This document shows positions 3 through 14,488 of a stretch of DNA of 20,966 nucleotides, piece after piece. This DNA is from a virus: positions 1 through 20,966 of IMG/VR virus record IMGVR_UViG_3300009790_000100; one strand, given 5' to 3'. Below the pieces are notes generated by a model. That model was not told the DNA's origin. It saw only the letters and a list, made by a program, of their open reading frames with translations, and searched no databases. Both the position numbers and the translations under genes were made by a program. Each line of letters begins with the position of its first letter. Position 1 is the stretch's first letter.

Positions 3-1109
3 AATTTTCCATCTAGTCCAAATAACGGTGATACACATTCCTCTAATGGGAATACGTATACGTATGTAGCTGATCCAGGCATATGGAAAGCAACCACATT
101 TGGTGATGCTCCAACTGGACCTGCCGGTACACTTGCTATTGGTACGGTAACAACTGGACCGGCTGGCGGTAGTGCATCCGTTACAAATACTGGCTCTAGT
201 ACCGCAGCGGTATTCGATATTACAATTCCGGCCGGTGCGGCTGGTGGTGCGGGCCCTCCCGGTGGAGCTGGTCCTCCAGGTGGAGCCGGAAGTGACGGAG
301 CAGCGGCAAGTATTAGTATTGGTACAATTACAACTGGTCCTGCGGGAGGTAGTGCTAGCGTAACAAATAGTGGTACAAGTGCGGCCGCGGTGTTTGACTT
401 TACGATACCTGCGGGTGCAACAGGTCCCCCCGGTGCTGGATCGACTGATGCGGATACACTAGATGGTGTTGACGGTGCTTCATATGCTAGATCAGATGCA
501 GACGATACTATATCTGGAAAATATGACTTTTCAAAAGATCAGAATGATGTAGTTAACTTTTCTGCTAACTCTAGTAATGATAATAGAGGTATTTCATTTA
601 ATGATCGTACTGCATTATCAGCTGACTATAACGATGGGTATTTACGATTAAATAATAATCAAGAATTTGGTAATGGCGTATATTCACCTTTGGTTATTCG
701 AGCTGATGGTGGTTTTAACGGTACTGCCTATTATGCAAACTGGTCTGATCTTGCCGAACATTATGAAGCGGATGCTGATTATGAACCAGGTACATTACTT
801 GCTATAGGTGGTGATAAAGAAGTTACATTATACAGAGTTGGTTTACCATTTTGTGGTGTTGTTTCTACAAAACCTGGATTAGTAATGAATATGGAGTATG
901 AGAGACCAGAAGAAGAGTTTTGGCCGGCAATTGCTTTGAAGGGTAGAATACCAGTAAAAATAAATGGCATCGCTAAAAAGGGTGATTTTGTTATTACTGA
1001 TGATATTGGTAAAGCAAAAGCTGTTGATAGCATGCATCACACAGATGTACGTAATTTAGTAGGTATCGCCTTAGAAGATGGCGAGGGTGAAATAGAAGTG
1101 AAAGTATAA
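3..1109 (+). CDS. tail-fibre-like virion protein, 5'-partial
   Basis: The frame is open from base 3 to the stop at 1107-1109, so this is the last 368 residues of a longer protein. The internal GTG at 390 is not a credible start. The visible part has two copies of a Gly/Ala/Ser-rich segment (IGT-x-TTGPAGGSASVTN...FD-x-TIPAGA) spaced 60 residues apart, then collagen-like triplets (GPP GGA GPP GGA GSD at 252-296; another GPP near 424). The C-terminal domain contains NWSDLAEHYEADADYEPGTL and a KGRIPVKI segment. It resembles the C-terminal domains of many marine T4-like structural proteins and, more loosely, the peptidase G2/IMC autoproteolytic chaperone domains of phage fibres. That resemblance comes from memory and was not searched. 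The role inferred is a virion fibre or adhesin. It ends one base before the next gene, which has no promoter of its own, so the downstream genes are probably co-transcribed with it. Confidence 0.75.
   Translation, partial: NFPSSPNNGDTHSSNGNTYTYVADPGIWKATTFGDAPTGPAGTLAIGTVTTGPAGGSASVTNTGSSTAAVFDITIPAGAAGGAGPPGGAGPPGGAGSDGAAASISIGTITTGPAGGSASVTNSGTSAAAVFDFTIPAGATGPPGAGSTDADTLDGVDGASYARSDADDTISGKYDFSKDQNDVVNFSANSSNDNRGISFNDRTALSADYNDGYLRLNNNQEFGNGVYSPLVIRADGGFNGTAYYANWSDLAEHYEADADYEPGTLLAIGGDKEVTLYRVGLPFCGVVSTKPGLVMNMEYERPEEEFWPAIALKGRIPVKINGIAKKGDFVITDDIGKAKAVDSMHHTDVRNLVGIALEDGEGEIEVKV
138..419 (+). repeat. in-frame 60-residue direct repeat plus collagen-like triplets in fibre gene
   Basis: Two diverged copies, starting at about 138 and 318 (period 180 bases, 60 codons), encode nearly the same 34-residue block ending in TIPAGA. 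Between them lie five consecutive G-X-Y triplets (252-296). Such repeats are typical of extended trimeric phage fibre shafts. The copies differ mainly at the wobble position, so this is an old duplication kept for its protein product. Confidence 0.8.
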
Positions 1110-1110
1110 C

Positions 1111-1491
1111 ATGGCAACCTGGTCACAGTTAAATACAAATGTCCAAAACCAATGTGGACCGCAATTAAGAACGTTTAGTGTTAGCTATAATATGGCTACG
1201 GCCGTATATACTAATGCGACGGCCGGCATGACATCTGGTACTGCAACTCATAACCAAACGCTATATCATTCTGATGGTAGCGGTCCTTATAGTACGTATA
1301 ACAATGATCTAGATGGTGGAATTTATACTGGTGCGCGTATGTACTCATCTCATGTACAAAACTCATTTGCTAATTGTGTTCGTGGTACAGTTGATAGAAT
1401 CGAAGCTGTTACTGGTAACCAATCATATAGTGCTTATGTTTGTCACACTAGTTGTCACACAAGTTGTCATACATCGAGAGGTAGACGCTAA
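1111..1491 (+). CDS. small protein with CHTS-repeat C-terminus; candidate rSAM-modified substrate, copy 1
   Basis: This 126-residue protein has no signal peptide or membrane segment. Residues 1-110 are rich in Asn, Thr, Ser, Gly and Tyr, with blocks GPQLRTF (16-22), VYTNATAGMTSGT (32-44) and DGGIYTGARMY (68-78). They end in a short charged stretch, VRGTVDRIE (90-98). The C-terminus is three exact Cys-His-Thr-Ser units (Cys111, Cys115, Cys119) followed by RGRR. The next gene encodes a diverged paralog in which exactly this tail is identical, so the tail is under stronger constraint than the rest. An identical repetitive Cys-rich C-terminus beside rSAM/SPASM genes suggests a RiPP-like precursor or a modified virion protein. 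That is inference, because the N-terminal part is long for a leader and looks like a phage structural domain. Metal binding by the Cys/His tail is the main alternative. It overlaps the next start by one base (TAATG). Confidence 0.85.
   Translation: MATWSQLNTNVQNQCGPQLRTFSVSYNMATAVYTNATAGMTSGTATHNQTLYHSDGSGPYSTYNNDLDGGIYTGARMYSSHVQNSFANCVRGTVDRIEAVTGNQSYSAYVCHTSCHTSCHTSRGRR
1441..1476 (+). repeat. three tandem CHTS codon units (12-base period)
   Basis: Three consecutive 12-base units encode Cys-His-Thr-Ser. They use different synonymous codons (cac/cat, act/aca, agt/tcg), so the repetition is kept at the protein level and is not a recent slippage product. The RGRR codons and the stop follow directly. 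Confidence 0.9.
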
Positions 1492-1493
1492 TG
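1476..1493 (+). promoter_or_regulatory. ribosome binding site inside RGRR codons, with TAATG overlap
   Basis: GAGAGG (1476-1481) lies within the Ser-Arg-Gly codons of copy 1, nine bases before the ATG at 1491, which shares a base with the TAA stop. This supports 1491 as the start and suggests translational coupling. An equivalent site, GAGGA (1861-1865), serves the rSAM gene at 1874. Confidence 0.65.
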
Positions 1494-1874
1494 GCCGCAT
1501 CACCATCCGATATTAATAGCTGGGTACAGTCTTCTGGTGGACCTCAGCTTCGTACGTTCGATAAAACTATTAACGTATATACAAACGTATATACAAATGC
1601 TACAGCAGGTATGACATCAGGTACAAGTGCGGCATCAACAAACCATAGATTTGAATATACAGGTGCTAATAATAACGTGTATAGTGGTTACTATGATGGC
1701 GGAATTAGCTCTGGTAGTAGAATATATGCACAAGACATCGTAGATACAATGGAAGATATTGTACGACGTACAGTAGATGTTATCGAAGGAAGATATAGTA
1801 ATAGATCACAATCACATTATGTATGCCATACTAGTTGTCATACAAGTTGTCATACATCAAGAGGAAGACGCTAA
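1491..1874 (+). CDS. small protein with CHTS-repeat C-terminus; candidate rSAM-modified substrate, copy 2
   Basis: This 127-residue paralog of the preceding gene shares GPQLRTF (17-23), VYTNATAGMTSGT (33-45), DGGI-x2-G-x-RIY (69-79), an R-x-TVD-x-IE segment (92-99) and the identical terminal CHTSCHTSCHTSRGRR (Cys112, Cys116, Cys120). The middle (46-68) is poorly conserved. Unlike copy 1, which also has Cys15 and Cys89, all cysteines here lie in the tail. That makes the tail the only possible site of Cys-based chemistry. The start ATG overlaps the upstream TAA (TAATG), with GAGAGG nine bases upstream inside the RGRR codons of copy 1. The same TAATG arrangement couples it to the rSAM gene downstream. 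The role is inferred from neighbours, as for copy 1. Confidence 0.85.
   Translation: MAASPSDINSWVQSSGGPQLRTFDKTINVYTNVYTNATAGMTSGTSAASTNHRFEYTGANNNVYSGYYDGGISSGSRIYAQDIVDTMEDIVRRTVDVIEGRYSNRSQSHYVCHTSCHTSCHTSRGRR
1824..1859 (+). repeat. three tandem CHTS codon units, second copy
   Basis: The same protein repeat as at 1441-1476, with largely the same codons but several synonymous changes (tgc for tgt, cat for cac). The flanking gene bodies have diverged far more than this block. Confidence 0.9.
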
Positions 1875-3040
1875 TGACTATGCAAAAATCATATTGCAAA
1901 CAGATGAGGTACTCAGGACCTGAAAGTCTTGCTCCATCTGATGCATATAAATTCGATGTTTTGATTCAAATGGAAGTCCTGGCAGGATGCGATCATGGTT
2001 GTCTTGGATGTTTTGTAGATAAGAACATTGATCCTGATATGAATCAGGCAATTATTAATCGTGCCAAAGAATTGGCAGACGGAGTAAAGAGAACAGGACT
2101 TAACTTACGTGAGTTTGTAATTGGTCCAACAGATTTCTTTACAGCCGAAAATACAAAGGCCGTATTAAATAATTCTGCAGTACAAGATATTATGCGTGAG
2201 CACACGGGTGCACGTATCGCAGCTCCGGCTAAATTCGATAAAGTTTCTATGGAGAAACTCAAAGAGATATTTGCTGTACTAGATGACGAAGACAAGTACC
2301 GACGTGATATGATCATTGAGTTTATCATGCCGATCGGCCGTGTGGCTGAAATGCTAGACGATGATGACTATTATAACGAAGTTATGAAAAAAGTAGAATT
2401 TTTTAAGAATGATACACCAAAGCAAATGGACTGGTCATGGACTCTACAGGCTTCTAATGTAGTCGGTAAGAAGATAGACAAAGAAACATATAACAAAATC
2501 ATAGACAAATCTGTAAACGAATATGAAACAATCGTTGAGATGAATCCGGCATTTTCACGTGCACGCAACCAGTTAATAAAGAGAAATAACTTATTTGCAT
2601 GGAATGATTTTCTCGGTAAAGTTATAGATGAAGATAACGCTAGTGAGACTGTAATGTCAATGGCAAATCTATATTGTAACTCAATTAACTTTGTAGGATT
2701 GACTATTGTTCCAGGTGAGAACGGTCCGACAACTCATTTGAATGTAATGTTACATGAGCAAGCATTCTTCTTAGAAAATAAAAACCTTGATGTGACAGGA
2801 TTATCGTTCGAAGAAATATTACAACGTAAGAATGAACTTGTATTAAAGGGTATAAATAAATCATCACAGGTAAAAGACTGTTCAGATTGTCAGTTCGCAA
2901 TTGCTTGTGCAAACAGATTAGTATTCGAAGCGCAAGATTCATTAAATGTAAATGGTTGTGTGATGAATAAAGAAGTGCTAGATCTATATAATCCATATGA
3001 TTTTACATGGAATGATGACGCAGAAAGGGCAATGGCATGA
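1874..3040 (+). CDS. radical SAM protein with C-terminal auxiliary-cluster cysteines (GPTD type, paralog 1)
   Basis: This is a 388-residue protein when started at the ATG that overlaps the upstream stop, with GAGGA eight bases before it. An in-frame ATG at 1835 exists but lies inside the upstream gene. Cys39, Cys43 and Cys46 form CX3CX2C within GCDHGCLGCF, the [4Fe-4S]/SAM-binding motif of radical SAM enzymes. IGPTDFF (83-89) sits about 40 residues later, where GGEP is usual. Near the C-terminus Cys336, Cys339, Cys345 and Cys362 give CX2CX5C-x16-C, a SPASM/Twitch-like pattern expected to bind an auxiliary cluster. Such enzymes commonly modify peptides (thioether or carbon-carbon links, epimerisation), but this reaction cannot be read from sequence. 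It lies directly behind the two CHTS proteins and is the best candidate for their modifying enzyme. The long middle part has no motif I recognise. Confidence 0.88.
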   Translation: MTMQKSYCKQMRYSGPESLAPSDAYKFDVLIQMEVLAGCDHGCLGCFVDKNIDPDMNQAIINRAKELADGVKRTGLNLREFVIGPTDFFTAENTKAVLNNSAVQDIMREHTGARIAAPAKFDKVSMEKLKEIFAVLDDEDKYRRDMIIEFIMPIGRVAEMLDDDDYYNEVMKKVEFFKNDTPKQMDWSWTLQASNVVGKKIDKETYNKIIDKSVNEYETIVEMNPAFSRARNQLIKRNNLFAWNDFLGKVIDEDNASETVMSMANLYCNSINFVGLTIVPGENGPTTHLNVMLHEQAFFLENKNLDVTGLSFEEILQRKNELVLKGINKSSQVKDCSDCQFAIACANRLVFEAQDSLNVNGCVMNKEVLDLYNPYDFTWNDDAERAMA

Positions 3041-4125
3041 TAGGTCAAAATTTATATTATTTAAATAACAAAAAGTATTGTACAACGTTCTCAAACCTTG
3101 ATACAGTGTTATTTGAATACAATTCATTCTATCATACATCTACTCCACGGAAGATGGTATTTGTAGAAATGAATACCACACGAGAAAATGCTGGGAACTT
3201 TGCCAGAGATAGTGTTACTAATCAAGTAACAAGTAGCATACCAGCTGATCGCGTAACCATTGAATGGAAAAATTTTGCAGATGTAGATAATATAGATTAT
3301 TTACAAAATAGTGATAAAGCTGTATTAATATTCAGTGATGACTTTGATCAACTTAATGTTTTAGGTAGATATATTGCAGGCTTATTAAAAGCATCTGGTT
3401 TTTATTCCAATCTTTCTAACGAAGAACTTAGCAGAATGGCCGGTGATTTTGTTCATAAAGTAACCGAAGCTGATTGGATGTTTAATTATATGAAAGTCAA
3501 TGATGATTTAGTTGATGTAAAGGCATATGTTGAATCTCAAATAACAGCTCATGGATTGTATGCTAACACGTTTCAGAATGGTGCAAACTTTAGTTACGAT
3601 TTATTATTTTATTTGAATGATCATCATACAAATGCATCAGTTCAAGGATTGATTAAAGAGAAATTTGTAATTCATTCTAATACAATGGCTAAAGATGTGA
3701 TGGAACACTTTACTTCACGTCGACATTACATGGCATACTTCTTATCAGTAATTGACTGGATGAACGCAAATGGATATCCTGTTGATAAGGATGCATGGGT
3801 AAAAGAAACATATCTAAACCTTGCAAACAAAGGTCAGTATACACAAGCATTCTATAAGATGGAAGAGCAATGGAATCGAGTAAAAGATGATGCAAACTTT
3901 ATTGCAGCCCATCAATCGAAAGCTGATGCAGATCCTGATGGTTGGGAATATATGGATCTATACACAGAATTTAAGAATGCGTTTCCGATCGTTCGTAAGG
4001 TTATTCAACAAGATTACGATATGAACAACCTAAGCTCTGATATAAAACTAATTAATACTGATGTGCAATTCTTTTCAAAGAGACAAAATAGGATACCTTA
4101 TTTAATTCACAAATACCCACTATAG
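3037..4125 (+). CDS. unrecognised 362-residue protein in rSAM operon
   Basis: I do not recognise the family. The start is an ATGA overlap with the upstream rSAM stop, with AAAGGG just upstream. The protein looks soluble, with no signal peptide, membrane segment or cysteine cluster (the only Cys is near residue 15). The N-terminal part (about 1-110) looks mixed alpha/beta and contains KAVLIFSDDFDQLNVLGRY. The rest looks helical, with many aromatic and charged residues and a HFTSRRHYMAYFL segment. Its tight coupling between two rSAM genes suggests a partner role such as substrate binding, scaffold or recognition protein. I could not identify a winged-helix RiPP recognition element by eye. Eight bases separate it from the next gene. 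Confidence 0.75.
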   Translation: MIGQNLYYLNNKKYCTTFSNLDTVLFEYNSFYHTSTPRKMVFVEMNTTRENAGNFARDSVTNQVTSSIPADRVTIEWKNFADVDNIDYLQNSDKAVLIFSDDFDQLNVLGRYIAGLLKASGFYSNLSNEELSRMAGDFVHKVTEADWMFNYMKVNDDLVDVKAYVESQITAHGLYANTFQNGANFSYDLLFYLNDHHTNASVQGLIKEKFVIHSNTMAKDVMEHFTSRRHYMAYFLSVIDWMNANGYPVDKDAWVKETYLNLANKGQYTQAFYKMEEQWNRVKDDANFIAAHQSKADADPDGWEYMDLYTEFKNAFPIVRKVIQQDYDMNNLSSDIKLINTDVQFFSKRQNRIPYLIHKYPL

Positions 4126-4133
4126 GATATATT

Positions 4134-4877
4134 ATGGAAGAAAAACTTTACACGTTACCTCTTGCACCGCAAGATCTCGTAGCTATTTACAAAGCAAAAG
4201 ATGAAACAGATAGTGCCGAAGAGTTTTGTCTTCATGTTGATTATGAAAAGACAACTGAAAAACTTAGTGATCAACATATTCTAATTTATCTTGCTAACAC
4301 AAATTTCAAAACAACGTTCGATAAGATAACTCCAAGCTTACTCGTTGAGTTTATTAAATCTAATTTTTTAGTTAACGCTCCGATTCTTGCAAGAGTTATG
4401 ACTATTGTTTTACGTAAGTATTTAAAGTACGAACTAACTCCACCGGAAGCTGTCCTATCAAGTTTAGTTTTTGATGAAAAGCAAATTGATGAATTTATAG
4501 AAATGAATGGAAATTTATTAGAAGATTTAATTACTTCTATTCAAGAAACATTTGCTTTTGTGCTTTATAAAATAAATGAAATTACTGAAGAAGGCAAAGA
4601 GCCTGAACTGGCAGAATATGTAAACGATATAGAGATAACTGATACGGCTAGTAACGTGGGTCCAAACATTGCTAGACTAATTACAGAAGCGGTTGATGCA
4701 ATGTATCTTGTTTATCATCTACGAGGAATTACACAATCATTTAATAAGCAAGTGTTTAATGATAATCCGAAGTTTTACGGTAAAGATTTAATGTTTATTT
4801 TTACTCAAACAGGGATAACAGGTGAAATAGTTAAGATGCTACCAGAAGGATTCTGGCATGATAGTAACCTTAAATAA
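4134..4877 (+). CDS. unrecognised 247-residue protein in rSAM operon
   Basis: I do not recognise the family. The ATG is preceded by TAGGATAT, the same kind of ribosome binding site as before the gp13 gene at 15095. The sequence looks mostly helical, acidic and soluble, with one cysteine near residue 32 and no export signal or metal motif. Residues 1-60 look mixed alpha/beta. Residues 75-160 and 180-230 look like helical bundles (for example DEFIEMNGNLLEDLITSI). The last 20 bases overlap the next rSAM gene, so it is translated within the same message. By position it could be an accessory or adaptor protein for the rSAM enzymes. Nothing in the sequence itself assigns a function. Confidence 0.72.
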   Translation: MEEKLYTLPLAPQDLVAIYKAKDETDSAEEFCLHVDYEKTTEKLSDQHILIYLANTNFKTTFDKITPSLLVEFIKSNFLVNAPILARVMTIVLRKYLKYELTPPEAVLSSLVFDEKQIDEFIEMNGNLLEDLITSIQETFAFVLYKINEITEEGKEPELAEYVNDIEITDTASNVGPNIARLITEAVDAMYLVYHLRGITQSFNKQVFNDNPKFYGKDLMFIFTQTGITGEIVKMLPEGFWHDSNLK

Positions 4878-5880
4878 TACGAATGCAGGATATTACACAT
4901 ATGATCCTGAGCTTTCGCCAATAAACCAAGACTTTCTAAGAACAGAAATAAATTTAGATATTCTGCACGGATGCGATCAAATGTGTCCGGGCTGTTTTAT
5001 TCCTCGTAAAAACTTTACGAAGGCAGATGATTTAGAAACATTGTATAATCTATTAGTCGGAGGCCAATACCATCCTGATGAGATTGTTATTGGACCAACT
5101 GATATATTTGATGCACAAAACTTTGAGGAGATAATGAATCATGAATATATGTTTAAGCTTTATGAGATTTCGGCTATTGGATTCACGTCTACACTTTTAC
5201 AACCATATTGGGTAATAAAAGAAAAACTAGATAAGATCTGGAGTTTATACCGGCACATCAAAAGAATACCAGATATAGATTTTAAGATCGTACTTGATGT
5301 AGACAAATATTTAGACGGTGAATTAGATGAGTGGTATAAAAAACTAAAACTATTCGAACATGGCTCTGTACAATTTAGAGTTAATTATTATAAAGGTGTG
5401 TTTGATCGTATAAGCTATAATGATCTATGCGAAAAGACATTTGAAGATTTTAATGCACCGGTTGTAATCACACCTTCTTTCCTAACAGACAGGAATGCAA
5501 GAGGCAAAGTAAGTCAACATCTTGCCAACTTCAGAGAAGACTTACTAAATCAGAATATAGATGAGAAGTGGCAAAACTATTATACATTCTTTGATGCAAA
5601 GTTTAATGGACTAGGTTGCCAAAACTATAGTTATTACAATGGTAAACTATACGTCAATCCGTTTCTATATGATGCAATCATTCAACGCACTCCATTCTTT
5701 GAGACTACGATGGATGAGAATAAACTATATGACAATATAGAATATGCACAACAAGTTGATGATTGTAATGGATGTGAATTTATGATGAGCTGTGCAGAAC
5801 GTAATGTACACATGTATATGGAATCAAGAGACTTGAATAGTTGCGTAGCAATTAAAGAGAACATGCATGCCTCTCATTAA
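4858..5880 (+). CDS. radical SAM protein (GPTD type, paralog 2)
   Basis: A 340-residue protein. AGAAGGA lies about eight bases before the ATG, inside the end of the previous gene. Cys39, Cys43 and Cys46 (GCDQMCPGCF) form the SAM-binding CX3CX2C motif. IGPTD is at 78-82. Cys303, Cys306, Cys312 and Cys329 give CX2CX5C-x16-C at the C-terminus (DCNGCEFMMSCAER...SC). The architecture matches the rSAM gene at 1874, but the middle is shorter and strongly diverged, so the paralogs probably differ in substrate or target site. The conserved PGCF is shared with the next two paralogs. It overlaps the next gene by 14 bases. The reaction is unknown; peptide modification is inferred from the C-terminal cluster and the neighbourhood. 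Confidence 0.87.
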   Translation: MIVTLNNTNAGYYTYDPELSPINQDFLRTEINLDILHGCDQMCPGCFIPRKNFTKADDLETLYNLLVGGQYHPDEIVIGPTDIFDAQNFEEIMNHEYMFKLYEISAIGFTSTLLQPYWVIKEKLDKIWSLYRHIKRIPDIDFKIVLDVDKYLDGELDEWYKKLKLFEHGSVQFRVNYYKGVFDRISYNDLCEKTFEDFNAPVVITPSFLTDRNARGKVSQHLANFREDLLNQNIDEKWQNYYTFFDAKFNGLGCQNYSYYNGKLYVNPFLYDAIIQRTPFFETTMDENKLYDNIEYAQQVDDCNGCEFMMSCAERNVHMYMESRDLNSCVAIKENMHASH

Positions 5881-7024
5881 AAATAATTTATACTATGAAC
5901 TGACTACTGAAACTCAAACGAAACCGGTATCAGCAGTTAAGATTCAATTAGATGTATTAGACGGTTGTCATCACAAGTGTCCGGGCTGCTTTGTTCATAG
6001 ACGAGGTAATGCTAGTGATGAGAATCAGATTAGAAAAGCAGAAACCTTTATTGAAAGTATTACTAGTCAAGGTATTTTAGTAGACGAGATTCTTATCGGA
6101 CCTACTGACTTTCTGGCTAGTGAAAACTTCTATGAGGTTATGCCACAACTGGAGTATATTATAAATGAAAATTCACCTATTCTTGCTTTTGTTAGCACCC
6201 TTATTGATGGTGACATTGTTCGCTTTTGTGATTGGATCACTAGTCGGATAAACACAGATACCGAAATAGAAATCGGTATCGCCACAAACCCACACAAATT
6301 TTTCGAAAAAAAGTATGTACAACACATCAAAGATGTGCTAAAGTATATAGATGAAAACCTCGAACATGAGGTGACTTACACATTTGTTGTAAACATTAAA
6401 GACTATGGACTAGACTACTCGGCCTTGCACGATCAGGCAGTCAAAGAGTTTAATACTATCCTAGACTTTATTCCTTCCGTATCACGTTCACATAAATCAA
6501 ATATTATTCTTGCTACTCTTGATAAGTTCAATGAGTATTTTAATGTATTGAGTAAAGATACAAAGTTGAATAATATTATGGTCGACCATTCTCATGGCGG
6601 CATGAATTATCAGGTTCTGAATTATAAGAAAGGTGAATGGTTTATTAGTCCTTTCATGTATGAGAACATGGCAATATATGATGATACGTTTAAAATAAAT
6701 TCATTCGATGATATAATGCCAATTATAGAATCTCAACAATATCTTGCAAAAGGTACCGAATGTGAGAACTGTGAATTATATTTTTCTTGCTATAATAGGA
6801 AGATAATCTTACTCAGAGATTATTTAGGTGAAGATAGATGTATTGCACCTAAAGAAAATATGATGAGAAATATAGATAACTATAACCATGCTGCTCAAAC
6901 AATGTATCAATGGGATGGCTATAGTGTAGACAACGATAAGAAAGGTTATCGTAAAAAGTTTCTTGTTACAAAAGATAACGATCCTGAATTAGAAAGAATT
7001 AAGAATATATCTTATGTTAAATGA
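5867..7024 (+). CDS. radical SAM protein (GPTD type, paralog 3)
   Basis: A 385-residue protein starting at the ATG within the last codons of the preceding gene, with AAAGAGA upstream. Cys34, Cys38 and Cys41 (GCHHKCPGCF) form the rSAM motif. IGPTD is at 77-81. Cys299, Cys302, Cys308 and Cys325 form CX2CX5C-x16-C. After the last cluster Cys there is an extra tail of about 60 residues, rich in Lys, Asp and Tyr, that paralogs 2 and 5 lack. It may be an interaction segment. The region from about 200 to 215 (FIPSVSRSHKSN) aligns with NPAFSRARNQ of paralog 1 and LPSVVRSFDYS of paralog 4, suggesting a conserved active-site strand with Ser/Arg. It overlaps the next gene by 11 bases. Substrate unknown. 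Confidence 0.87.
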   Translation: MPLIKNNLYYELTTETQTKPVSAVKIQLDVLDGCHHKCPGCFVHRRGNASDENQIRKAETFIESITSQGILVDEILIGPTDFLASENFYEVMPQLEYIINENSPILAFVSTLIDGDIVRFCDWITSRINTDTEIEIGIATNPHKFFEKKYVQHIKDVLKYIDENLEHEVTYTFVVNIKDYGLDYSALHDQAVKEFNTILDFIPSVSRSHKSNIILATLDKFNEYFNVLSKDTKLNNIMVDHSHGGMNYQVLNYKKGEWFISPFMYENMAIYDDTFKINSFDDIMPIIESQQYLAKGTECENCELYFSCYNRKIILLRDYLGEDRCIAPKENMMRNIDNYNHAAQTMYQWDGYSVDNDKKGYRKKFLVTKDNDPELERIKNISYVK

Positions 7025-8159
7025 CGAATGGAAAAAGATTGTCATAGATGGTAATAGACTGGAAGAGTTTACTTCCGTATCTGCTATGACACAATATAAG
7101 ATTCAACCTCAGCTTGAGTTGCTAGAGGGTTGTGCTTACATGTGTCCGGGATGTTTTGTAAAACGTAGAGGCAATTGGAATCCATATTCAGTACATTTAT
7201 TTTGGCGGCTAGCAAATGAACTTGCAGGTAGAGAAGATATAGTATTAGATGACGTTGTAATAGGACCAACAGATTTCTATGGTGCTGAAAATTTAGATAC
7301 TATCATTGAAGATGTAAAGCTGGCCGAAGGCATAGTCATGATGCCTGAAGACAATCGTAACATACAACACAATTGTTCGATACTTGGATCCTTGTCAGAG
7401 AAGGACATTGAGGGAAAGATACGCAAGATAGAAAGGTCGCTCCTGGGTAGCGTGGTCAAGTCTTGGGATGTACAGGTGGCGATAGATGTTAAACGTCTGA
7501 TATATGACGAGACATATAAAAAAGCATTAGATGAAAGAATTGAAACATTTAAAAACTCATCTATGAATTATGAAATATCTATGGCAACGAATATTGTAGA
7601 TGGTATAGAAGATATTATATTTGATGCTATAGATCTAGTAAGAGATAAGTACGAAACTGTGATAGAGATTCTACCATCAGTTGTAAGGTCTTTTGATTAT
7701 AGCCCAAAGCATGGTGAGAAACTATTCGAATGGAATGATATGCTTACTAAGCTTACAGAAAATAATTCACGATTTAAGCAAAGATTTCATTTTCTACAAG
7801 GTGACTTATCTCACAAAGCATTTCATTATTCGGTCATAAATATACACAATGGTAGAATCTTTATGGCTCCATTCATTTATGAAAATGGACAAATATATAA
7901 TGAAGCCTTTTTAATAGATGTAGAAAAAGGTGGTACGATAGTCGATCGTATATTATCATATAAAGATTGGATTGTAAACCACCAAATTCAAAATAGTCAA
8001 CTGACTGAATGCCATAGTTGTAAATATTTAAATATATGCTCGCATAGACTTATACCTCGGGTTATGGAAACAGTTTTTCAAAATAGAAAAGAGTGTATAC
8101 TAAATAAAGATGTAATAGCATTATTCGATGATGAGGCTTACAATGGGAATAGTTACTAA
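7014..8159 (+). CDS. radical SAM protein (GPTD type, paralog 4)
   Basis: A 381-residue protein. The start at 7014 has only a weak ribosome binding site, and it overlaps the upstream gene by 11 bases, so coupling is likely. Cys40, Cys44 and Cys47 (GCAYMCPGCF) form the rSAM motif. IGPTD is at 83-87. Cys333, Cys336, Cys342 and Cys361 give CX2CX5C-x18-C, two residues longer than the other paralogs. The RRGNW segment after the first cluster resembles HRRGN in paralog 3, suggesting these two are closest relatives. Like paralogs 1, 3 and 5 it keeps a (N/L)P-S/A-(V/F)-x-R motif near residue 220-225. It is probably a peptide- or protein-modifying enzyme acting in the phage-infected cytoplasm. The specific reaction cannot be stated. 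Confidence 0.86.
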   Translation: MLNDEWKKIVIDGNRLEEFTSVSAMTQYKIQPQLELLEGCAYMCPGCFVKRRGNWNPYSVHLFWRLANELAGREDIVLDDVVIGPTDFYGAENLDTIIEDVKLAEGIVMMPEDNRNIQHNCSILGSLSEKDIEGKIRKIERSLLGSVVKSWDVQVAIDVKRLIYDETYKKALDERIETFKNSSMNYEISMATNIVDGIEDIIFDAIDLVRDKYETVIEILPSVVRSFDYSPKHGEKLFEWNDMLTKLTENNSRFKQRFHFLQGDLSHKAFHYSVINIHNGRIFMAPFIYENGQIYNEAFLIDVEKGGTIVDRILSYKDWIVNHQIQNSQLTECHSCKYLNICSHRLIPRVMETVFQNRKECILNKDVIALFDDEAYNGNSY

Positions 8160-9159
8160 CAACAAAGCTCATGCGCAAGCTAGTGATGACTTCGATCTAT
8201 CATTTAGTGAAGGTCATAAAGTAAAAGTACAATTTAATTGTGAGGTACTATCCGGCTGTGAGTTTAAATGCAAAGGCTGCTTCGTTAACAAACTAGGATC
8301 TAATGTAGGGTCCTTCGATAAATTAAACAACGCAATAGATTTATTTAAGAACAATGGTTATCACGTCTCTACTATCAATATTGGCCCTACTGACCTGTTT
8401 GGCAATAATAATATTATATCTCTTTTAGAGAATAAGGTCTTTAGAGAATGCTTATCAAAAGTAACTACAATACAGTTTGTTACGACACTAGAGAATATAG
8501 ATTTACGAGTTATTGATAAACTAAACTCAATACCAAAACGCGATGGCTTTATGTACGACTGTAATATTCAATTGCAGCCACCGGTTAATTGGGCAGATAT
8601 AAAAGATAAGATGAGTGCACTAGATTTATTCTGGGACGATCTTAACTACTACTTTGTTTATAATATGGGTAATGACGATGAGTATAATGAACAGGTACTC
8701 GATATGTCAAGAGTTACAGATAAAGTATTTGATTCTATTCTTACATTAAATCCATCATTCTTTAGAGCACAAAAATCTAAAGTACATAAACATCTAATAG
8801 AGAAATGGAAGAAGTATGACTTTAGCGATGATCTATATCCAAAGACAATTGTAGACCAGGCGCAAGGTGGCAGCCTAGAATTAAATTATACTTTTTGTAA
8901 TGATAGATTCTTCTGGACACCATTTGTATACGACATTGTACTGATTGGTACAGATGAGTTTGAGGTCAAAGATCCGACTGACTTAAATAGTTGGGAAGAA
9001 CCTAAAACAAACATGTTTACAAAGCAGTTGATGTATGATACAGAGAGTTGTAGCGGATGCGTTAACCAGATGACGTGTATTGATAAAGGGGTTCTTGCAT
9101 ATATGCAACATCACTCTCTAACCGCCTGTGTGTTTCCTGGTGTTGTTGCTGATAATTAA
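8143..9159 (+). CDS. radical SAM protein (GPTD type, paralog 5)
   Basis: A 338-residue protein when started at 8143, which has GAGG seven bases upstream. The ATG at 8128 would add five residues and lacks such a site. Cys39, Cys43 and Cys46 (GCEFKCKGCF) form the rSAM motif. IGPTDLF is at 80-86. Cys303, Cys306, Cys312 and Cys329 form CX2CX5C-x16-C. It contains TLNPSFFRAQKSK, matching the NPAFSRARNQ segment of paralog 1. It overlaps the upstream gene by 17 bases and closes the plus-strand run. Its last 98 bases, including the codon for Cys329, overlap tail-to-tail with the convergent rSAM gene on the other strand. No terminator fits between the two runs. Confidence 0.87.
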   Translation: MGIVTNNKAHAQASDDFDLSFSEGHKVKVQFNCEVLSGCEFKCKGCFVNKLGSNVGSFDKLNNAIDLFKNNGYHVSTINIGPTDLFGNNNIISLLENKVFRECLSKVTTIQFVTTLENIDLRVIDKLNSIPKRDGFMYDCNIQLQPPVNWADIKDKMSALDLFWDDLNYYFVYNMGNDDEYNEQVLDMSRVTDKVFDSILTLNPSFFRAQKSKVHKHLIEKWKKYDFSDDLYPKTIVDQAQGGSLELNYTFCNDRFFWTPFVYDIVLIGTDEFEVKDPTDLNSWEEPKTNMFTKQLMYDTESCSGCVNQMTCIDKGVLAYMQHHSLTACVFPGVVADN

Positions 9160-10171
9160 ACCACATTCTCATTACGCAATCAGGTAGATCTCTCTCACGG
9201 TTTTTCCAATCCCATTGTGTATAACATCTAAATCCACATTTATCCCACCACTTACAAGATAGACAACCATGCTCGTCCATATATGCTTGCATCATAGAAG
9301 CGTTGTCGCCTCTATTCAATGGTGTATTAAAGTCGGTTTTAGTATAACGATTCCATCTACAATTTGATATACTATTGTCTGGAAAGATAGTAACTTTATT
9401 TAATGCCATACAATGCATATGGTTTGATTCATTCTCTATAAGGTCTGCCATAGGATTGATATCAGGGTAATTGTGGTAAACAAACTTGAGGAAATCAAGA
9501 TATTGAGAATCAGAAGGAATGAGATGGTCAAACCCCTTATCAGGAATGTAGTCATCAAAATAGAAATTATCAAACTTACTATACAAATAGTGGAAATACT
9601 CATCATCATCTGCCATAAACCTCTTTATAGATGGGACTGTTGCAACCATATTAATTGAGGTAATATAGTCTGCAAAGTACTCAATGTTTCTTCCATAAGG
9701 TCCTTTCACTGGTCGACCGTCAAAGTCGTATGAACAAATAATATAAGATGGGATGCCTGCTGTATTTAAATCATCTAATAGTTTTTGTACTCTTTCTTGT
9801 TTACTAAATTGAAAGGACGTGACCCATACGACTTTTATTTTCATATCATGTTCGTCGTATATCTTTTTAATCTCTATGAGTAAATCATAATAATCGTTAT
9901 ATGCCCAATGAGATATTCTATCTTGGAATAATTCACCTCCGACCATATTGATCTGACAGGTCTTAACCATTCCAACCATTTTCTTTACATGTGTTTCTAC
10001 GAGTGGTATCTTAGAAAACATATCTTCTCGTGATAATCCGACTGTTGATTTTTTATCATGATGGCAGAACGCACAATTCAAGTGACAGTTCTCAAACAAG
10101 GTAAGTTCGATCTCACCTATGTTCGGCCGCTTGGGTTCTAATAGTGCTTTTGTAAAATCAAAGTTGTCCAA
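9062..10171 (-). CDS. radical SAM/SPASM protein with TTG start
   Basis: A 369-residue protein. An in-frame TAA lies directly before the TTG at 10171 and no ATG occurs before the first cluster, so TTG is the best start, with AAGAAGAG upstream. Cys29, Cys33 and Cys36 (NCHLNCAFC) form the rSAM motif. MVGGE (76-80) is the normal GGE motif. The C-terminal part has a full SPASM pattern: HC-x16-C, then CX2CX5CX3C (CLSCKWWDKCGFRC), then DC. Two auxiliary [4Fe-4S] clusters are therefore expected. This layout is typical of anSME-like and peptide-modifying enzymes. Residues after the last Cys run antisense through the end of the convergent rSAM gene and are probably dispensable. It overlaps the upstream 133-residue gene by 14 bases and ends the minus-strand run. 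Substrate unknown. Confidence 0.87.
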   Translation of the reverse strand: MDNFDFTKALLEPKRPNIGEIELTLFENCHLNCAFCHHDKKSTVGLSREDMFSKIPLVETHVKKMVGMVKTCQINMVGGELFQDRISHWAYNDYYDLLIEIKKIYDEHDMKIKVVWVTSFQFSKQERVQKLLDDLNTAGIPSYIICSYDFDGRPVKGPYGRNIEYFADYITSINMVATVPSIKRFMADDDEYFHYLYSKFDNFYFDDYIPDKGFDHLIPSDSQYLDFLKFVYHNYPDINPMADLIENESNHMHCMALNKVTIFPDNSISNCRWNRYTKTDFNTPLNRGDNASMMQAYMDEHGCLSCKWWDKCGFRCYTQWDWKNRERDLPDCVMRMWFNYQQQHQETHRRLESDVAYMQEPLYQYTSSG

Positions 10172-10559
10172 TTAACATCTCTTCTTCGTAATACTTTCTC
10201 ACGTCTCCAACCATACCTTGTTCGTTGTTTTTCCAGTCAGCATACCAAAGAATATCGTTATATATTTCCATATCTTCACTATAGATTTTAAAATATGGAT
10301 CATGCGGTAATAGATCTTTATCATTCAATACATCAAGAAAGTTTTCACCAAAGTCAAGTGCAATCCAGTTTGCATAACATATCGCCACAAAATATGACTT
10401 AGCTGGGTAAATCCACTCATCTACTTTCTCATGAAAATGAAGTACAGCATCATTGACTATAGAATCAGGTTTCCATACTATATCTACTTTATTTAAATCA
10501 TCTGTATGTTCAGTTGACATCAAATGATAAGCTTTAGATCTTGCCTTCCATTCTTGCAT
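10158..10559 (-). CDS. unrecognised 133-residue protein between rSAM genes
   Basis: I do not recognise the family. The start at 10559 has AAGGA about eleven bases upstream and overlaps the end of the preceding rSAM gene by 26 bases. A second ATG at 10520 has no clear ribosome binding site. The protein is acidic and rich in Trp, Tyr and Asp, with a single cysteine, and has no signal peptide or membrane segment. It has segments KSYFVAICYANWIALDFGEN and WYADWKNNEQ, and looks like a compact soluble domain. Its size and its position between two rSAM/SPASM genes would fit a small recognition or partner protein, but no PqqD-like features were identified. It is part of the overlapping minus-strand run. 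Confidence 0.65.
   Translation of the reverse strand: MQEWKARSKAYHLMSTEHTDDLNKVDIVWKPDSIVNDAVLHFHEKVDEWIYPAKSYFVAICYANWIALDFGENFLDVLNDKDLLPHDPYFKIYSEDMEIYNDILWYADWKNNEQGMVGDVRKYYEEEMLIGQL
10169..10174 (-). promoter_or_regulatory. TAA-TTG junction that fixes a non-ATG start
   Basis: Read on the minus strand, the bases are TAATTG: an in-frame TAA directly followed by TTG. No ATG or GTG lies between here and the rSAM cysteine codons 28 residues later. AAGAAGAG just upstream, in the end of the preceding gene, can serve as a ribosome binding site. Confidence 0.6.
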
Positions 10560-11448
10560 AATCTAGTAGTCCTTTGTATCCATTACATCCGTTTATAAGA
10601 TCTTTAACATATCTATAGTGTTCAGTCAAACATTTGCCATAATAGTCACACGTTCTACAAATATCTGATACATTATCTTCTTTCTCTTTTTGTGTCCATT
10701 TGATATAATCATTATATGTGTCTAGCTCTAAAAAGTATTCGTTATCATTCTTATCAAATTCTAATACACCAAATTTGCCGCTCGGTGTTATATAAACATG
10801 ATCATCACTAAATGCATTATAATGGCCAAGTAAGCAATCAGTTATACGAGCAGAGTTTTCGAAATGAAACTCAAATTGTGTAGGATGCTCAATCCATTTT
10901 AAAACAAAATCCTCAAAGTCTTTATGACTAACATTCTGTTGATTAGCTTGATTAGTTGAGTATGGTTTTATTTCTACACTCTCTACATTTCTAATCATAT
11001 TAAATGTATGGACCATAAAGTCTACATCCATCTCAATAACTTTTTTAGATGCAAGGACAAGAACGGCTAACTGTTTATTTGCATCCATCATATTATTTAA
11101 TACATGTTGTTGTTTCTCTCTCGCATCAAAGTCATATGATACGGATAATGAAATATCATCATCACGAAAAAAATCTGGGAATGCAGATAAGTTTGTGTTT
11201 ATATTTATTTCATCGTCGTAGTATTTACGAATAATATCTTTCATAGCATAGAAATAGTCTGGTTTAAGTAAGCCTACTTCACCGCCATATAAATCGATAT
11301 GATTTATCTCAGGTACTTCTGATAACCTTTGATCTAATACATCTAAGTCAATTTTATTTCTATCACCTAATTGCTCAGGAGTCAGATAACAAAAGTCACA
11401 CCTAAAGTTGCAATAGTAAGTCGGGTTGATCGATAGATTCATCGACAT
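10534..11448 (-). CDS. radical SAM protein with short C-terminal cluster (GGE type)
   Basis: A 304-residue protein. The ATG at 11448 has GGGAG nine bases upstream; an ATG two codons later is also possible. Cys13, Cys17 and Cys20 (YCNFRCDFC) form the rSAM motif, starting unusually close to the N-terminus. YGGEVG (54-59) is the GGE motif. The C-terminal part holds C-x2-C-x5-C-x14-C (CRTCDYYGKC...GC), which resembles the plus-strand paralogs more than the full SPASM of its minus-strand neighbours. One cysteine (ITDC) about 70 residues earlier could be a further ligand. It is the shortest rSAM protein here. It overlaps the upstream gene by 47 bases and the downstream gene by 26. Peptide modification is inferred from family and context. 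Confidence 0.85.
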   Translation of the reverse strand: MSMNLSINPTYYCNFRCDFCYLTPEQLGDRNKIDLDVLDQRLSEVPEINHIDLYGGEVGLLKPDYFYAMKDIIRKYYDDEININTNLSAFPDFFRDDDISLSVSYDFDAREKQQHVLNNMMDANKQLAVLVLASKKVIEMDVDFMVHTFNMIRNVESVEIKPYSTNQANQQNVSHKDFEDFVLKWIEHPTQFEFHFENSARITDCLLGHYNAFSDDHVYITPSGKFGVLEFDKNDNEYFLELDTYNDYIKWTQKEKEDNVSDICRTCDYYGKCLTEHYRYVKDLINGCNGYKGLLDYARMEGKI

Positions 11449-12463
11449 ACGGCGTCACTCCCTTAGGATCCATTCCATTTAATTCTAATATACGAGGTGC
11501 CATACCTTTCATTTGTTTACAGTGAGATTCTACAGTACCTTCTCGTTTCATATCTCGTACTGTCTTTTTACAACCATTACAAATCTCAAACATGGGACAG
11601 GTATAACACGCCATCTTCATTGTTTGTATGTTAGGATCATTTTGCAATGGTGTTTGCATTGGTCCATTCATTTCTTCGTCAAAGTTTATTGGATAATCAA
11701 GGTCATCAGCCAATGAACCACACGAATAATAATCACCACCCGGATTGAATGCACGGATACCTTCGTCACAATTACGGTTTTGTGGGCAGGTTGTAAAACC
11801 ACGCTTTAGTCGTCTCATCATTTGTTTTGTGTTAAACTCCCAATGATGTAAGTCCGCATCATATACATCGAGATATAGCTGATAGATCTTACTAAGTCTA
11901 TATGTATTACCTTGTACACCCGAAGCCATTGCGTAATTGAGTTTACATTCCACATTCATCTCTTTTGCAAGCTTGACATTATCAAGTGCACGATAATCAT
12001 TCATGTCTGTAAGAACTGCAATAAAATCTGGTCGTTCACCACAATATTTTAACATTGCATCTGATACAGCCCAAAAGTCTTCTTCTGTAAATTCAGTCAG
12101 GTCACCTTTGAGTCGGCCGCCGCCGTACTGGAATGATGTACAAATACCCATACGATCGTGATTAAATAAATCTACCCACTTCTGAGGTTTAACATAGAAT
12201 GGCCATAGATTTGTGGTAAAAGAAATATGTGCAGGATAATCGTGTTCATCAAGGTGTTCAATGATTTTCCAATAGTAACTCGGATCAACCATCAATGGAT
12301 CGCCACCATTAATAATAAGAGAGTTAGTATCAGGATAACGCTTTAGGAAACGAAAGACATAATCCAAGTCTAACAACCCAGCTTTATCTGGGTCGATGGC
12401 TGTTGAAGAACAGAACGTACATTTAAAATTACAGGCCTCGGTAGGCTTTATTATTAAATCCAT
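11402..12463 (-). CDS. radical SAM/SPASM protein (GGDP type)
   Basis: A 353-residue protein starting at an ATG with AAGGA six bases upstream, overlapping the previous gene by 10 bases. Cys11, Cys15 and Cys18 (ACNFKCTFC) form the rSAM motif, and NGGDP (52-56) is the SAM-contacting GGEP variant. The C-terminal half has a full SPASM set: C-x5-C within CPQNRNC, G-x4-C in GGDYYSCG, then CX2CX5CX2C (CYTCPMFEICNGC) and a final HC. This predicts two auxiliary clusters, as in anaerobic sulfatase-maturating-type enzymes and several RiPP maturases. A glycine-rich FQYGGGRLKG segment lies near residue 110. Substrate unknown. The C-terminal tail beyond the final Cys is about 40 residues and overlaps the next gene. 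Confidence 0.88.
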   Translation of the reverse strand: MDLIIKPTEACNFKCTFCSSTAIDPDKAGLLDLDYVFRFLKRYPDTNSLIINGGDPLMVDPSYYWKIIEHLDEHDYPAHISFTTNLWPFYVKPQKWVDLFNHDRMGICTSFQYGGGRLKGDLTEFTEEDFWAVSDAMLKYCGERPDFIAVLTDMNDYRALDNVKLAKEMNVECKLNYAMASGVQGNTYRLSKIYQLYLDVYDADLHHWEFNTKQMMRRLKRGFTTCPQNRNCDEGIRAFNPGGDYYSCGSLADDLDYPINFDEEMNGPMQTPLQNDPNIQTMKMACYTCPMFEICNGCKKTVRDMKREGTVESHCKQMKGMAPRILELNGMDPKGVTPYVDESIDQPDLLLQL

Positions 12464-13485
12464 CCCTTTTCCTTAGCTAAGGTCATCATAAGTGTTTTTG
12501 GTGCTGGACATACATCGTCCATCCATTTAAGTTGGTGACAATCCGAGTGGCAATATAAAAAGACTGGGCACTTATAACATCTCTCATCTCGTTCATGTAA
12601 TTCACAAGAAATAATTTCCATACGTTTTGGTGATGATCTTACTTCTTTTGCAGGTGTATTTATGTGTCCATACCATTCTGTTGGTGCGGCATTTGGGCAG
12701 CCCGCGACTGTACCGTCTGCATTTATAGTATGTATCTTTTGTTCGCAATCTCTACAAAAAGTACCGTTAAAAAACTGACCGGCATCAAACTTAGCATAAA
12801 CGGAATCAAGGAATCCGTTCTCTACAGGATGATCCTTTGTGGTTTTATGCATTAACATCCACCATTTATCAAGGTCTGTATTGTGTGGAAATATATCTGG
12901 ATTTAGTTCGGCATTACCATTATGTGTTAATCTCTCATATGAGATCTCAGATATACCAAGTGAATGCATATAGTCAGCTATTTCTAATGGATCCATCTTT
13001 ACCATATCGGTTGTAACTGATATAAAGCATTTTAATCTTACGCCTAGGCCTACAAGTGTTTTAACGTTATCTTCCCATAACTCACGTTGCCTGTCATTCG
13101 CAAATCTAATATTAGGATCCCATGACGTAGCTACGTTACCACCGTCTATACAATCAACAAAGAAGTCTATGTACTCTTGTCTTAACTTAAATGTCAGATT
13201 AGTTGTAATACCGTGAGTACATCTCTCACCCCAGTTTTTCTTTGTGATATTATAAAATTCCATAATATCTTCCATCGGCGCAAGCATAGGCTCTCCACCA
13301 TGATACTCAAGGTGGATTAAATTATCTTTCGTATCTAATTGATTACACCAGTCCGCAGTCTTTTTTGCATCGAAATATATTTTACGACCATTCTTTCCCG
13401 ACGTAAAACAATGAAAGCAATTAAGATTGCATGTCTCCGTTGTCTTCACGTATACGATCAAGTGTTTCTGTGTCGCTAATGCCAT
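12454..13485 (-). CDS. radical SAM/SPASM protein, anSME-like (GGEP type)
   Basis: A 343-residue protein. Cys19, Cys23 and Cys26 (TCNLNCFHC) form the rSAM motif, with a canonical HGGEP at 62-66. The C-terminal SPASM domain is complete: C-x2-C (FCRDC), G-x4-C in DGTVAGC, then CX2CX5CX3C (CYKCPVFLYCHSDC) and a last Cys in DDVC. It is the most conventional rSAM/SPASM protein in the window, resembling the anSME branch, whose members oxidise or cross-link Cys, Ser or other side chains. No sulfatase or obvious CxPxR/CxAxR target is encoded here. The ATG lies 65 bases inside the end of the cupin gene and has no strong ribosome binding site, so coupled translation is likely. It is the first enzyme after the cupin in the minus-strand run. 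Confidence 0.88.
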   Translation of the reverse strand: MALATQKHLIVYVKTTETCNLNCFHCFTSGKNGRKIYFDAKKTADWCNQLDTKDNLIHLEYHGGEPMLAPMEDIMEFYNITKKNWGERCTHGITTNLTFKLRQEYIDFFVDCIDGGNVATSWDPNIRFANDRQRELWEDNVKTLVGLGVRLKCFISVTTDMVKMDPLEIADYMHSLGISEISYERLTHNGNAELNPDIFPHNTDLDKWWMLMHKTTKDHPVENGFLDSVYAKFDAGQFFNGTFCRDCEQKIHTINADGTVAGCPNAAPTEWYGHINTPAKEVRSSPKRMEIISCELHERDERCYKCPVFLYCHSDCHQLKWMDDVCPAPKTLMMTLAKEKGWI

Positions 13486-13903
13486 GAGAAGCTATTAATG
13501 CCCTTTCATAATTCAGTGCTTTATGTTCAGTGCCTGCACGGATAGACAGTTTATCACCAGGAGTTAAAATAACTTCTATACCATCTACCCACATAGATTT
13601 AGATCCTGCTTTGCATTCTATTATAACATCAACTGGATCTGTATGTTTTTCAAATGTCGGACCAAATTTAGGATTATAGAATAAATGAATTGTTCGGTCG
13701 TCAAACTTCCAATATTTTTCCATTTGTTCTATTTTAATTGTTACTTTACCCATCGCTAAATGTTCTGCCATGAGTGCACAATATGCATAATACTCAGTAG
13801 GTTCTATGTAATGTTGTAATCCATCTTCATCGATTATAGAAACATCGTGTTCATTATAACATTGTCCCGACATTAAGAATTCCTCGAATTGCTCAAATGT
13901 CAT
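13421..13903 (-). CDS. cupin-domain protein
   Basis: The protein has 160 residues from the ATG at 13903, which has AAGGA seven bases upstream and lies just behind an exact T4-type late promoter. An upstream in-frame ATG at 13984 would cross that promoter and the opposite-strand gene, so it is rejected. Residues 116-131 match cupin motif 2 closely: G-x5-R-x-G-x2-H-x3-N in GDKLSIRAGTEHKALN. Motif 1 is less standard, with His87, Glu96 and the following Gly (EKHTDPVDVIIECKAG). Metal binding through His87 and His127 is plausible. Cupins include isomerases, dioxygenases and sugar-binding proteins, so no reaction is assigned. As first gene of a run with four rSAM genes it may act in the same pathway. 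Confidence 0.75.
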   Translation of the reverse strand: MTFEQFEEFLMSGQCYNEHDVSIIDEDGLQHYIEPTEYYAYCALMAEHLAMGKVTIKIEQMEKYWKFDDRTIHLFYNPKFGPTFEKHTDPVDVIIECKAGSKSMWVDGIEVILTPGDKLSIRAGTEHKALNYERALIASHGISDTETLDRIREDNGDMQS

Positions 13904-13929
13904 TTTAATTCCTTTATAGATAGTACTGT

Positions 13930-13937
13930 TATTTATA
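13930..13937 (-). promoter_or_regulatory. T4-type late promoter (TATAAATA) for minus-strand rSAM run
   Basis: The minus strand reads exactly TATAAATA, the T4 late promoter -10 consensus, 27 bases before the cupin ATG, within the 45-base divergent gap. Several such octamers are expected by chance in 42 kb of AT-rich strand, but chance placement in one of the few short gaps is unlikely. It implies late expression by a gp55/gp33/gp45-type system. Confidence 0.75.
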
Positions 13938-13948
13938 ATGAGGTTCAA

Positions 13949-14488
13949 ATGATACATAACGCTTGGTCTACACCAATTGAACATACGTCGTCACACATTG
14001 AAGGGTTAGTCGATCATATTCTAACGTACGCAGATACCACTAAAATCAATTATACCATACTTGAAGACGATAGTAAACCTATAAATGAATTAAAACAAAT
14101 AGCATATGATAATTTTAAAAAATATGTAAATAAATGTTTTGGAGTAGATATAGACAAATATCATACTCAAATGAAAGCATGGGTAATATCACCTACTGGG
14201 TCGTACACACACCAGATCCACAATCATATGGGTGCTATGTTTTCTTCTATTTACTATGTATTAGCAGATGAACAAAATATAGGTGGTGAAATAAAATTTC
14301 ACGATCCGCGTGGAAATGCTAATAGAGGATATGATGAAAATTTTAAACATCATTTTGAAGATAAAATTATTTTACCTAAGACTGATGATGTGTTAATATT
14401 CCCATCATTTCTATATCATTCAGTTAATCCTTTCTCGTCCGGCATAAGAATAGCATTACCTATTGACTTATATCTATTTCAGGAGTAG
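13949..14488 (+). CDS. Fe(II)/2-oxoglutarate oxygenase-like protein (HxH type)
   Basis: The protein has 179 residues from the ATG at 13949, which has GAGG six bases upstream. The longer reading from 13889 would overlap the divergent cupin start and promoter. The jelly-roll core shows IHNHMGAMFSSIYYV with His91-x-His93, a distal His157 (FPSFLYHSV) and Arg167 (GIRIAL), the expected order for metal ligands and the 2-oxoglutarate-binding Arg. The first pair is HxH instead of HxD, as I recall for the TIGR02466 group of putative oxygenases. Such proteins are common in T4-like marine phages, and their substrates are mostly unknown. It is followed three bases later by a second, different oxygenase. 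The two may act on virion proteins or on the products of the nearby rSAM enzymes; that is inference. Confidence 0.78.
   Translation: MIHNAWSTPIEHTSSHIEGLVDHILTYADTTKINYTILEDDSKPINELKQIAYDNFKKYVNKCFGVDIDKYHTQMKAWVISPTGSYTHQIHNHMGAMFSSIYYVLADEQNIGGEIKFHDPRGNANRGYDENFKHHFEDKIILPKTDDVLIFPSFLYHSVNPFSSGIRIALPIDLYLFQE

Follow-up and report, generated by a model that had tools for sequence, protein, structure and literature searches.

Paired T proteins of the window and their setting

The window analysed here is the complete IMG/VR virus record IMGVR_UViG_3300009790_000100 (20,966 bases). It carries a cassette in which two small proteins with a repeated Cys-His-x-Ser (CHxS) C-terminal tail, hereafter T proteins, are encoded together with nine radical S-adenosylmethionine (rSAM) genes. 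T1 (126 aa) and T2 (127 aa) are neighbouring paralogs on the + strand, whose last 16 residues, CHTSCHTSCHTSRGRR, are identical. As the initial annotation had described, their bodies have diverged (47% identity). The DNA encoding the two tails differed at 5 of 48 nucleotides, every difference being synonymous, which points to selection, and not a recent copying event, as what has kept the tails identical. Chance and gene conversion were ruled out as origins of the twin tails, based on these synonymous differences and on the codon-swapped control given below.

The AlphaFold2 model of T2 was characterized by a helix, a long beta-hairpin, a second helix, and a low-confidence tail (mean predicted local distance difference test score, pLDDT, of 79; 52-58 in the tail). 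The T fold had no match in the PDB at E 0.001 and none in the viral structure library BFVD. A folded body that bears a conserved tail without structure, as modelled for T2, fits a modification substrate.

The count of nine rSAM genes also held: five CX3CX2C proteins, probable rSAM enzymes, are encoded on the + strand, and the - strand encodes the other four. Two non-rSAM genes inside the + run, HY and U, had been left out of the earlier description, and the gene encoding F breaks the - strand block. The original observation was confirmed but understated, as the cassette also comprises U, HY, F, a cupin, and two 2-oxoglutarate (2OG)-Fe(II) oxygenases. The T4-like structural setting was borne out by a T4_neck-protein and a head-tail adaptor encoded in the window.

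Distribution of the tail and its association with rSAM genes

When the window T protein was searched directly by sequence against the phage collection, no match was obtained; the link to other phages was made via the rSAM genes and a DNA pattern of the tail. With the window rSAM genes, tblastn reached isolated jumbo phages of Burkholderia (SURPRISE13, FLC6, and FLC8), Pseudomonas (DT01), Agrobacterium (Atu_ph07), and Sinorhizobium (Phosso). In all four jumbo-phage loci examined, the gene right after the first rSAM gene encoded a protein with an unrelated-looking body ending in CHxSCHxSCHx[SA]R[GS]RR. The DNA pattern (CHxx)3-RxRR-stop was found in at least 119 IMG/VR viral stretches; a control pattern with the codons for Cys and His exchanged gave 0 matches in viral contigs. 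Among the matches listed and the isolated phages, 145 tails were counted, corresponding to 69 distinct sequences, and Ser occupied the fourth position of units 1, 2, and 3 in 59, 46, and 58 of these, respectively.

T bodies ranged from 124 to 364 aa, with protein lengths clustering near 126-140, 170-220, and 247-309 aa. Most belonged to one homologous family (128 out of 138 fell in a single BLAST component), and they diverged down to about 20% identity while the tail Cys, His, and Arg residues stayed fixed. Indeed, the only invariant columns in an alignment of 51 diverse T proteins were nine tail Cys/His/Arg residues, with a mean column identity of 17%. All 63 proteins matched by a hidden Markov model of the tail-less body carried exactly three CHxx units; one four-unit tail was the single exception among all tails.

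The initial annotation had held that tails commonly found in genomes without rSAM genes would refute its proposal of a modification system. When this was examined, the proposal was not refuted: rSAM genes were present on the same record in 123 out of 123 phage tail loci, within the fetched stretch for 117 of them and elsewhere on the record (at least four rSAM genes) for the remaining six. For the converse, 35 contigs no shorter than 20 kb were retrieved with the window A-type enzyme (A), and 23 of these also carried the tail. The 12 others appear to end before the tail would be reached: 11 had less sequence past A than the 11.6-12.4 kb that separate A from T in the window, and the last, at 11.9 kb, was borderline. 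A-type enzymes were detected by tblastn in 7-8 of 50,697 phage records; the A-tail partnership is thus not background. By the same method, no A-type rSAM was found in Klebsiella phage Eowyn (NC_070650), a relative of DT01 by published core genes, so that the cassette seems to be accessory within the DT01 phage family.

Among the GTDB species genomes, 16 of the 19 tail-pattern matches were real, of which 15 had rSAM genes in their vicinity and the remaining one lay at a contig edge. The other three, in Frankia EI5c (L131), Pseudoalteromonas T1lg48 (L132), and Bordetella LUAb4 (L138), were rejected as chance matches with no rSAM gene nearby; L131 was an Arg-rich frame whose end was not the tail, and L132 and L138 had no 60-aa frame. 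The cassette was rare in Bdellovibrionota (9 out of 369 genomes). Three of these cassettes were chromosomal (contigs up to 382 kb), with housekeeping genes in the flanks, among them those for acyl-CoA dehydrogenase, pyruvate kinase, and cytochrome oxidase, as named from their translations. Bdellovibrionota cassettes adjoined pseudopilin-like genes, and one pseudopilin (L148) contained a Peptidase_S74 domain (E = 8e-13). In a tree of A, the Bdellovibrionota sequences did not form one group and one of them sat among phage sequences; this suggests exchange, a reading made unsure by the long branches. Loci L148-L153 also encoded, beside the cassette, a protein ending in GRHWV[QK]VK, as well as a short one that starts with a signal-like stretch at its N-terminus. 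Moreover, a B12-binding plus radical SAM protein, belonging to another rSAM class, was observed in one Bdellovibrionota cassette (L149, 6571-8307).

Gene order, enzymes and related systems

The usual gene order was tail fibre, cupin, A, T, U, D, B, C, F. In most phages A immediately precedes T, as was seen for 87 T genes, and 95 T genes were immediately followed by U; U was present in 116 of 142 tail loci, in most of them directly after T. In 69 loci, the cassette was preceded by a fibre gene with the same Peptidase_G2-like C-terminal domain as in the window; the match of the window fibre to PF11962 (E = 0.00043) was under the Pfam cut-off. The window is of a marine type, in which the T genes are paired, additional E-type rSAM genes occur, and the A-D block is inverted to the other strand. 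HY was present in 18 loci, mostly of this paired-T type. The isolated jumbo phages of several hosts retained cupin-A-T together with more rSAM and 2OG genes, and the window B-type rSAM was 53-57% identical to jumbo-phage homologs. In Burkholderia phage SURPRISE13, two dihydrofolate-reductase-annotated genes were observed between cassette rSAM genes (L005, 20403-21580).

Table 1. Features of the cassette and its surroundings in the window (aux, auxiliary)
Feature	Position	Strand	Match or remark
Tail fibre C-terminal part, Peptidase_G2-like C-terminal domain (YADLAExY...ALKGRxPVKxxG..KGD)	3..1109	+	PHROG tail fibre matches
T1, CHxS-tail protein, 126 aa, putative substrate	1111..1491	+	
T1 tail CHTSCHTSCHTSRGRR	1441..1488	+	
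T2, CHxS-tail protein, 127 aa	1491..1874	+	
T2 tail CHTSCHTSCHTSRGRR	1824..1871	+	
E-type divergent probable rSAM (CDHGCLGC), one aux cluster	1877..3040	+	Start at ATG 1877, not at the mechanically called TTG 1835
HY, 362 aa, unknown function	3037..4125	+	
U, 247-aa partner protein	4134..4877	+	
E-type divergent probable rSAM (CDQMCPGC)	4858..5880	+	
E-type divergent probable rSAM (CHHKCPGC)	5867..7024	+	
E-type divergent probable rSAM (CAYMCPGC)	7014..8159	+	
E-type divergent probable rSAM (CEFKCKGC)	8128..9159	+	
D-type rSAM (CHLNCAFC)	9062..10171	-	phrog_1802, E = 1.9e-20
F, 133-aa conserved cassette protein	10158..10559	-	phrog_20737, E = 6.6e-34
C-type rSAM (CNFRCDFC)	10534..11448	-	PF04055, E = 1.5e-7; phrog_1802
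B-type rSAM (CNFKCTFC), two aux-cluster Cys sets	11402..12463	-	PF04055, E = 1.2e-8
A-type rSAM, full SPASM cysteine pattern	12454..13485	-	
Cupin/JmjC-like protein, HxD...H facial triad, likely Fe(II)/2OG oxygenase	13421..13984	-	True start uncertain
2OG-Fe(II) oxygenase	13889..14488	+	PF13759, E = 2.8e-14; true start uncertain
2OG-Fe(II) oxygenase	14492..15049	+	PF13640, E = 5.4e-14
Head-tail adaptor	15095..15847		phrog_211
T4_neck-protein	15852..16445		PF11649, E = 2e-33

The CX3CX2C motif was kept in 331 of 334 cassette rSAM proteins, nearly all of which also kept the auxiliary-cluster cysteines. In 18 diverse A proteins, C19, C23, C26, the HGGEP motif at 62-66, and C247, C263, C303, C306, C312, C316, and C326 were invariant. 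A displays the SPASM pattern in full (CX3CX2C, GGE-type motif, Cx9-15Gx4C...CX2CX5CX3C...C) and scored 30.3 bits against the TIGR04085 SPASM model (cut-off 27). The E-type proteins, with CX3CX2C in 93 out of 93, are probable rSAM enzymes: the five of the window were assigned from this motif, conserved auxiliary-cluster cysteines, and weak PHROG and NrdG core matches (phrog_1802, 6.6e-5; NrdG, 0.0021; best Pfam rSAM match, PF04055, 0.0037). A profile search found no known structure for them. The cupin residues H116, D118, and H156, which form the HxD...H facial triad, were kept in 70 out of 70 homologs, which fits its likely identity as an Fe(II)/2OG oxygenase. The structure of U was modelled confidently (pLDDT 91.9; predicted TM score 0.89) and shows a new fold, with no PDB fold match at E 0.001.

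The closest solved relatives of A were the anaerobic sulfatase-maturating enzymes (PDB 4k37, E = 1.9e-11), with similarity over nearly the whole enzyme. These act on Cys/Ser of a folded protein; the sulfatase C/S-x-P-x-R motif is not in the T tail, and the T cassette has multiple rSAM enzymes. Among curated models, the closest to A were DynA, PapB, YhhB, DarE, HxsB, and others, all far under their equivalog cut-offs; for example, the PapB ranthipeptide maturase model gave 42.1 bits (cut-off 340). The His-Xaa-Ser (Hxs) system (HxsA, HxsB/HxsC) resembles the T cassette in having a C-terminal repeat containing His-x-Ser and several adjoining rSAM genes. A resembled HxsB below the cut-off in 13 of 18 members (28 bits versus 370) and C resembled HxsC (E = 1.5e-4; 20.7 bits versus 267.9), and none of 51 T proteins matched the HxsA model. 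Unlike Hxs, T has Cys in every unit and a fixed three units followed by RGRR, and its cassette has a phage structural context, Fe(II) oxygenases, and a U protein. A CXXX repeat core is shared with the CXXX-repeat system, whose TIGR04115 maturase model matched A weakly in 5 of 18 members (best 4.8e-8, under the cut-off). The T units differ in their conserved His and Ser, and T had no match to the CXXX-repeat precursor model. A TVGG-repeat C-terminal core modified by an rSAM enzyme, with a 2OG-Fe oxygenase gene present, is described for TvgA/TvgB/TvgC (PMC9062424). This is a precedent for rSAM and 2OG oxygenase action on a repeated core, but with another motif, one rSAM, a bacterial origin, and an exported peptide. 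The T cassette works like rSAM repeat-core systems (HxsA, CXXX, TVG), and by the tests run it is not a member of the Hxs, CXXX-repeat, or PapB systems.

Downstream of the neck genes, the window encodes a 918-aa protein with repeated TPPVVTVA-type motifs and no Pfam match (16445-19201), followed by two neighbouring proteins (19214-20497 and 20508-20966) with a common N-terminal domain. The first of these had no Pfam match. Their plastocyanin-like ligand sets, GHQLRFT ... YYCATHGLGMGN and NHPFKFT ... YFCGTHGMGMGN, respectively, point to a possible copper or cupredoxin-like domain carried by tail proteins.

Proposed function of the cassette

The computation establishes a conserved tail, a constant rSAM partnership, a gene order, and enzyme active-site motifs. 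Moreover, a putative ribosomal precursor with a conserved core is encoded beside candidate modifying enzymes, one of the hallmarks of ribosomally synthesised and post-translationally modified peptides (RiPPs). Taken as a whole, we consider it fairly probable that this is a maturation cassette, whose enzymes modify a virion protein associated with the fibre, acting on its (CHxS)3 tail. The interpretation in the initial annotation, of tails modified by the neighbouring enzymes, is supported by the tail-rSAM co-occurrence. We infer, with good confidence, that the tail is the substrate; a location of T in the virion or fibre is slightly favoured, crosslinking plus hydroxylation is about as likely as not, and use of the modified tail in host attack is tentative.

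SPASM relatives form thioethers, cyclophanes, His-Tyr links, or formylglycine. In the proposed pathway, T would be made in the cytoplasm as a small, fibre-associated protein presenting C-terminal (CHxS)3-R[GS]RR. The SPASM rSAM A, then D, B, and C, with several E-type enzymes in some lineages, would generate radicals on tail residues and crosslink or oxidise Cys, His, and Ser, while hydroxylation of residues would fall to the cupin and the 2OG-Fe(II) oxygenases; T may be held or presented by U, perhaps together with F and HY. Once complete, the tail would give the phage tail fibre a chemically hardened tip or patch with which to bind or enter the host, and predatory bacteria would use the same cassette beside pseudopilin/S74-type genes. 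The S74 pseudopilin next to the L148 cassette recalls the Mosaic adhesive trimer (MAT) fibres of Bdellovibrio, which are phage-like S74 fibres of predatory bacteria (PMC10769870). T itself had no S74/NS74 domain by Pfam/NCBIfam and is not a MAT protein, S74 being found in the neighbour gene only. More doubtful is a pathway shared by phages and predatory bacteria that makes (Cys-His-x-Ser)3 a previously unknown crosslinked or oxidised structure on cell-attacking fibre tips, serving as a host-recognition anchor.

Several points weigh against a fibre-associated, modified tail. Fibre attachment of T depends on gene position, T and U having no fold match, and the E-type enzymes are too divergent for a confident family (hhalign to A, probability 3%, with the auxiliary-cluster region alone aligned). 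No leader peptidase was identified, and no constant cassette peptidase family was seen, none having been searched for specifically. It is also conceivable that the tail is unmodified and binds metal. If so, it would be a metal, Fe-S, or heme binding tag with CX3CH steps, and the rSAM enzymes would act elsewhere, for example on the tail fibre or a small molecule. The motif is indeed Cys/His-rich and strictly spaced, and metal-binding His sites are known at phage fibre tips. We nevertheless find this improbable, as an unmodified metal site would not require a constant rSAM partnership, whereas the tail was never found apart from rSAM genes and T is flanked directly by A and U. The idea of a c-type heme tail (CX3CH) was set aside given the same partnership and no apparent signal peptide in the T sequences read.

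T might also be a RiPP-like effector and not part of the virion. Its modified tail would then be released or act in the infected cell, or the predator would export it, and it would have an antibacterial, superinfection-exclusion, or signalling function. The repeat core beside SPASM rSAM genes is a RiPP-like layout, and chromosomal copies occur in Bdellovibrionota; but no transporter or peptidase is constant in the cassette, T bodies, mostly of one family, are large for a leader, and the cassette adjoins tail fibre genes in 69 loci, so that we regard an effector as unlikely. It seems highly improbable that the rSAM enzymes serve auxiliary or Fe-S metabolism aiding the host, with T as an unrelated neighbour. 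Such roles have been proposed: the six rSAM genes of Pseudomonas phage DT01 were ascribed to DNA repair or metabolism (PMC8541153), and the twelve of a marine T4-like genome are grouped with Fe-S genes (PMC5332604). However, A is most similar to peptide and protein maturases, and T-A adjacency is strict over unrelated phages and bacteria.

Multiple rSAM genes in phages were thus known before. In Aeromonas jumbo phage 332-Vera, eight such genes in the structural cluster were called highly unusual (PMC12390700), and rSAM cassettes lie in the host-recognition cluster of pelagimyophages (PMC7029224). In the open-licence papers searched, we found neither a CHxS tail family nor a substrate for these enzymes mentioned. 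The unexplained multi-rSAM phages, with six, eight, or twelve genes per genome, now gain one conserved, short, sequence-defined candidate substrate. This opens the question to direct testing in phage isolates whose hosts are tractable in the laboratory, and may yield new rSAM peptide chemistry on Cys/His/Ser. If the proposal is true, virion protein modification would gain a new class, and phage adsorption would be linked to the machinery of predatory bacteria.

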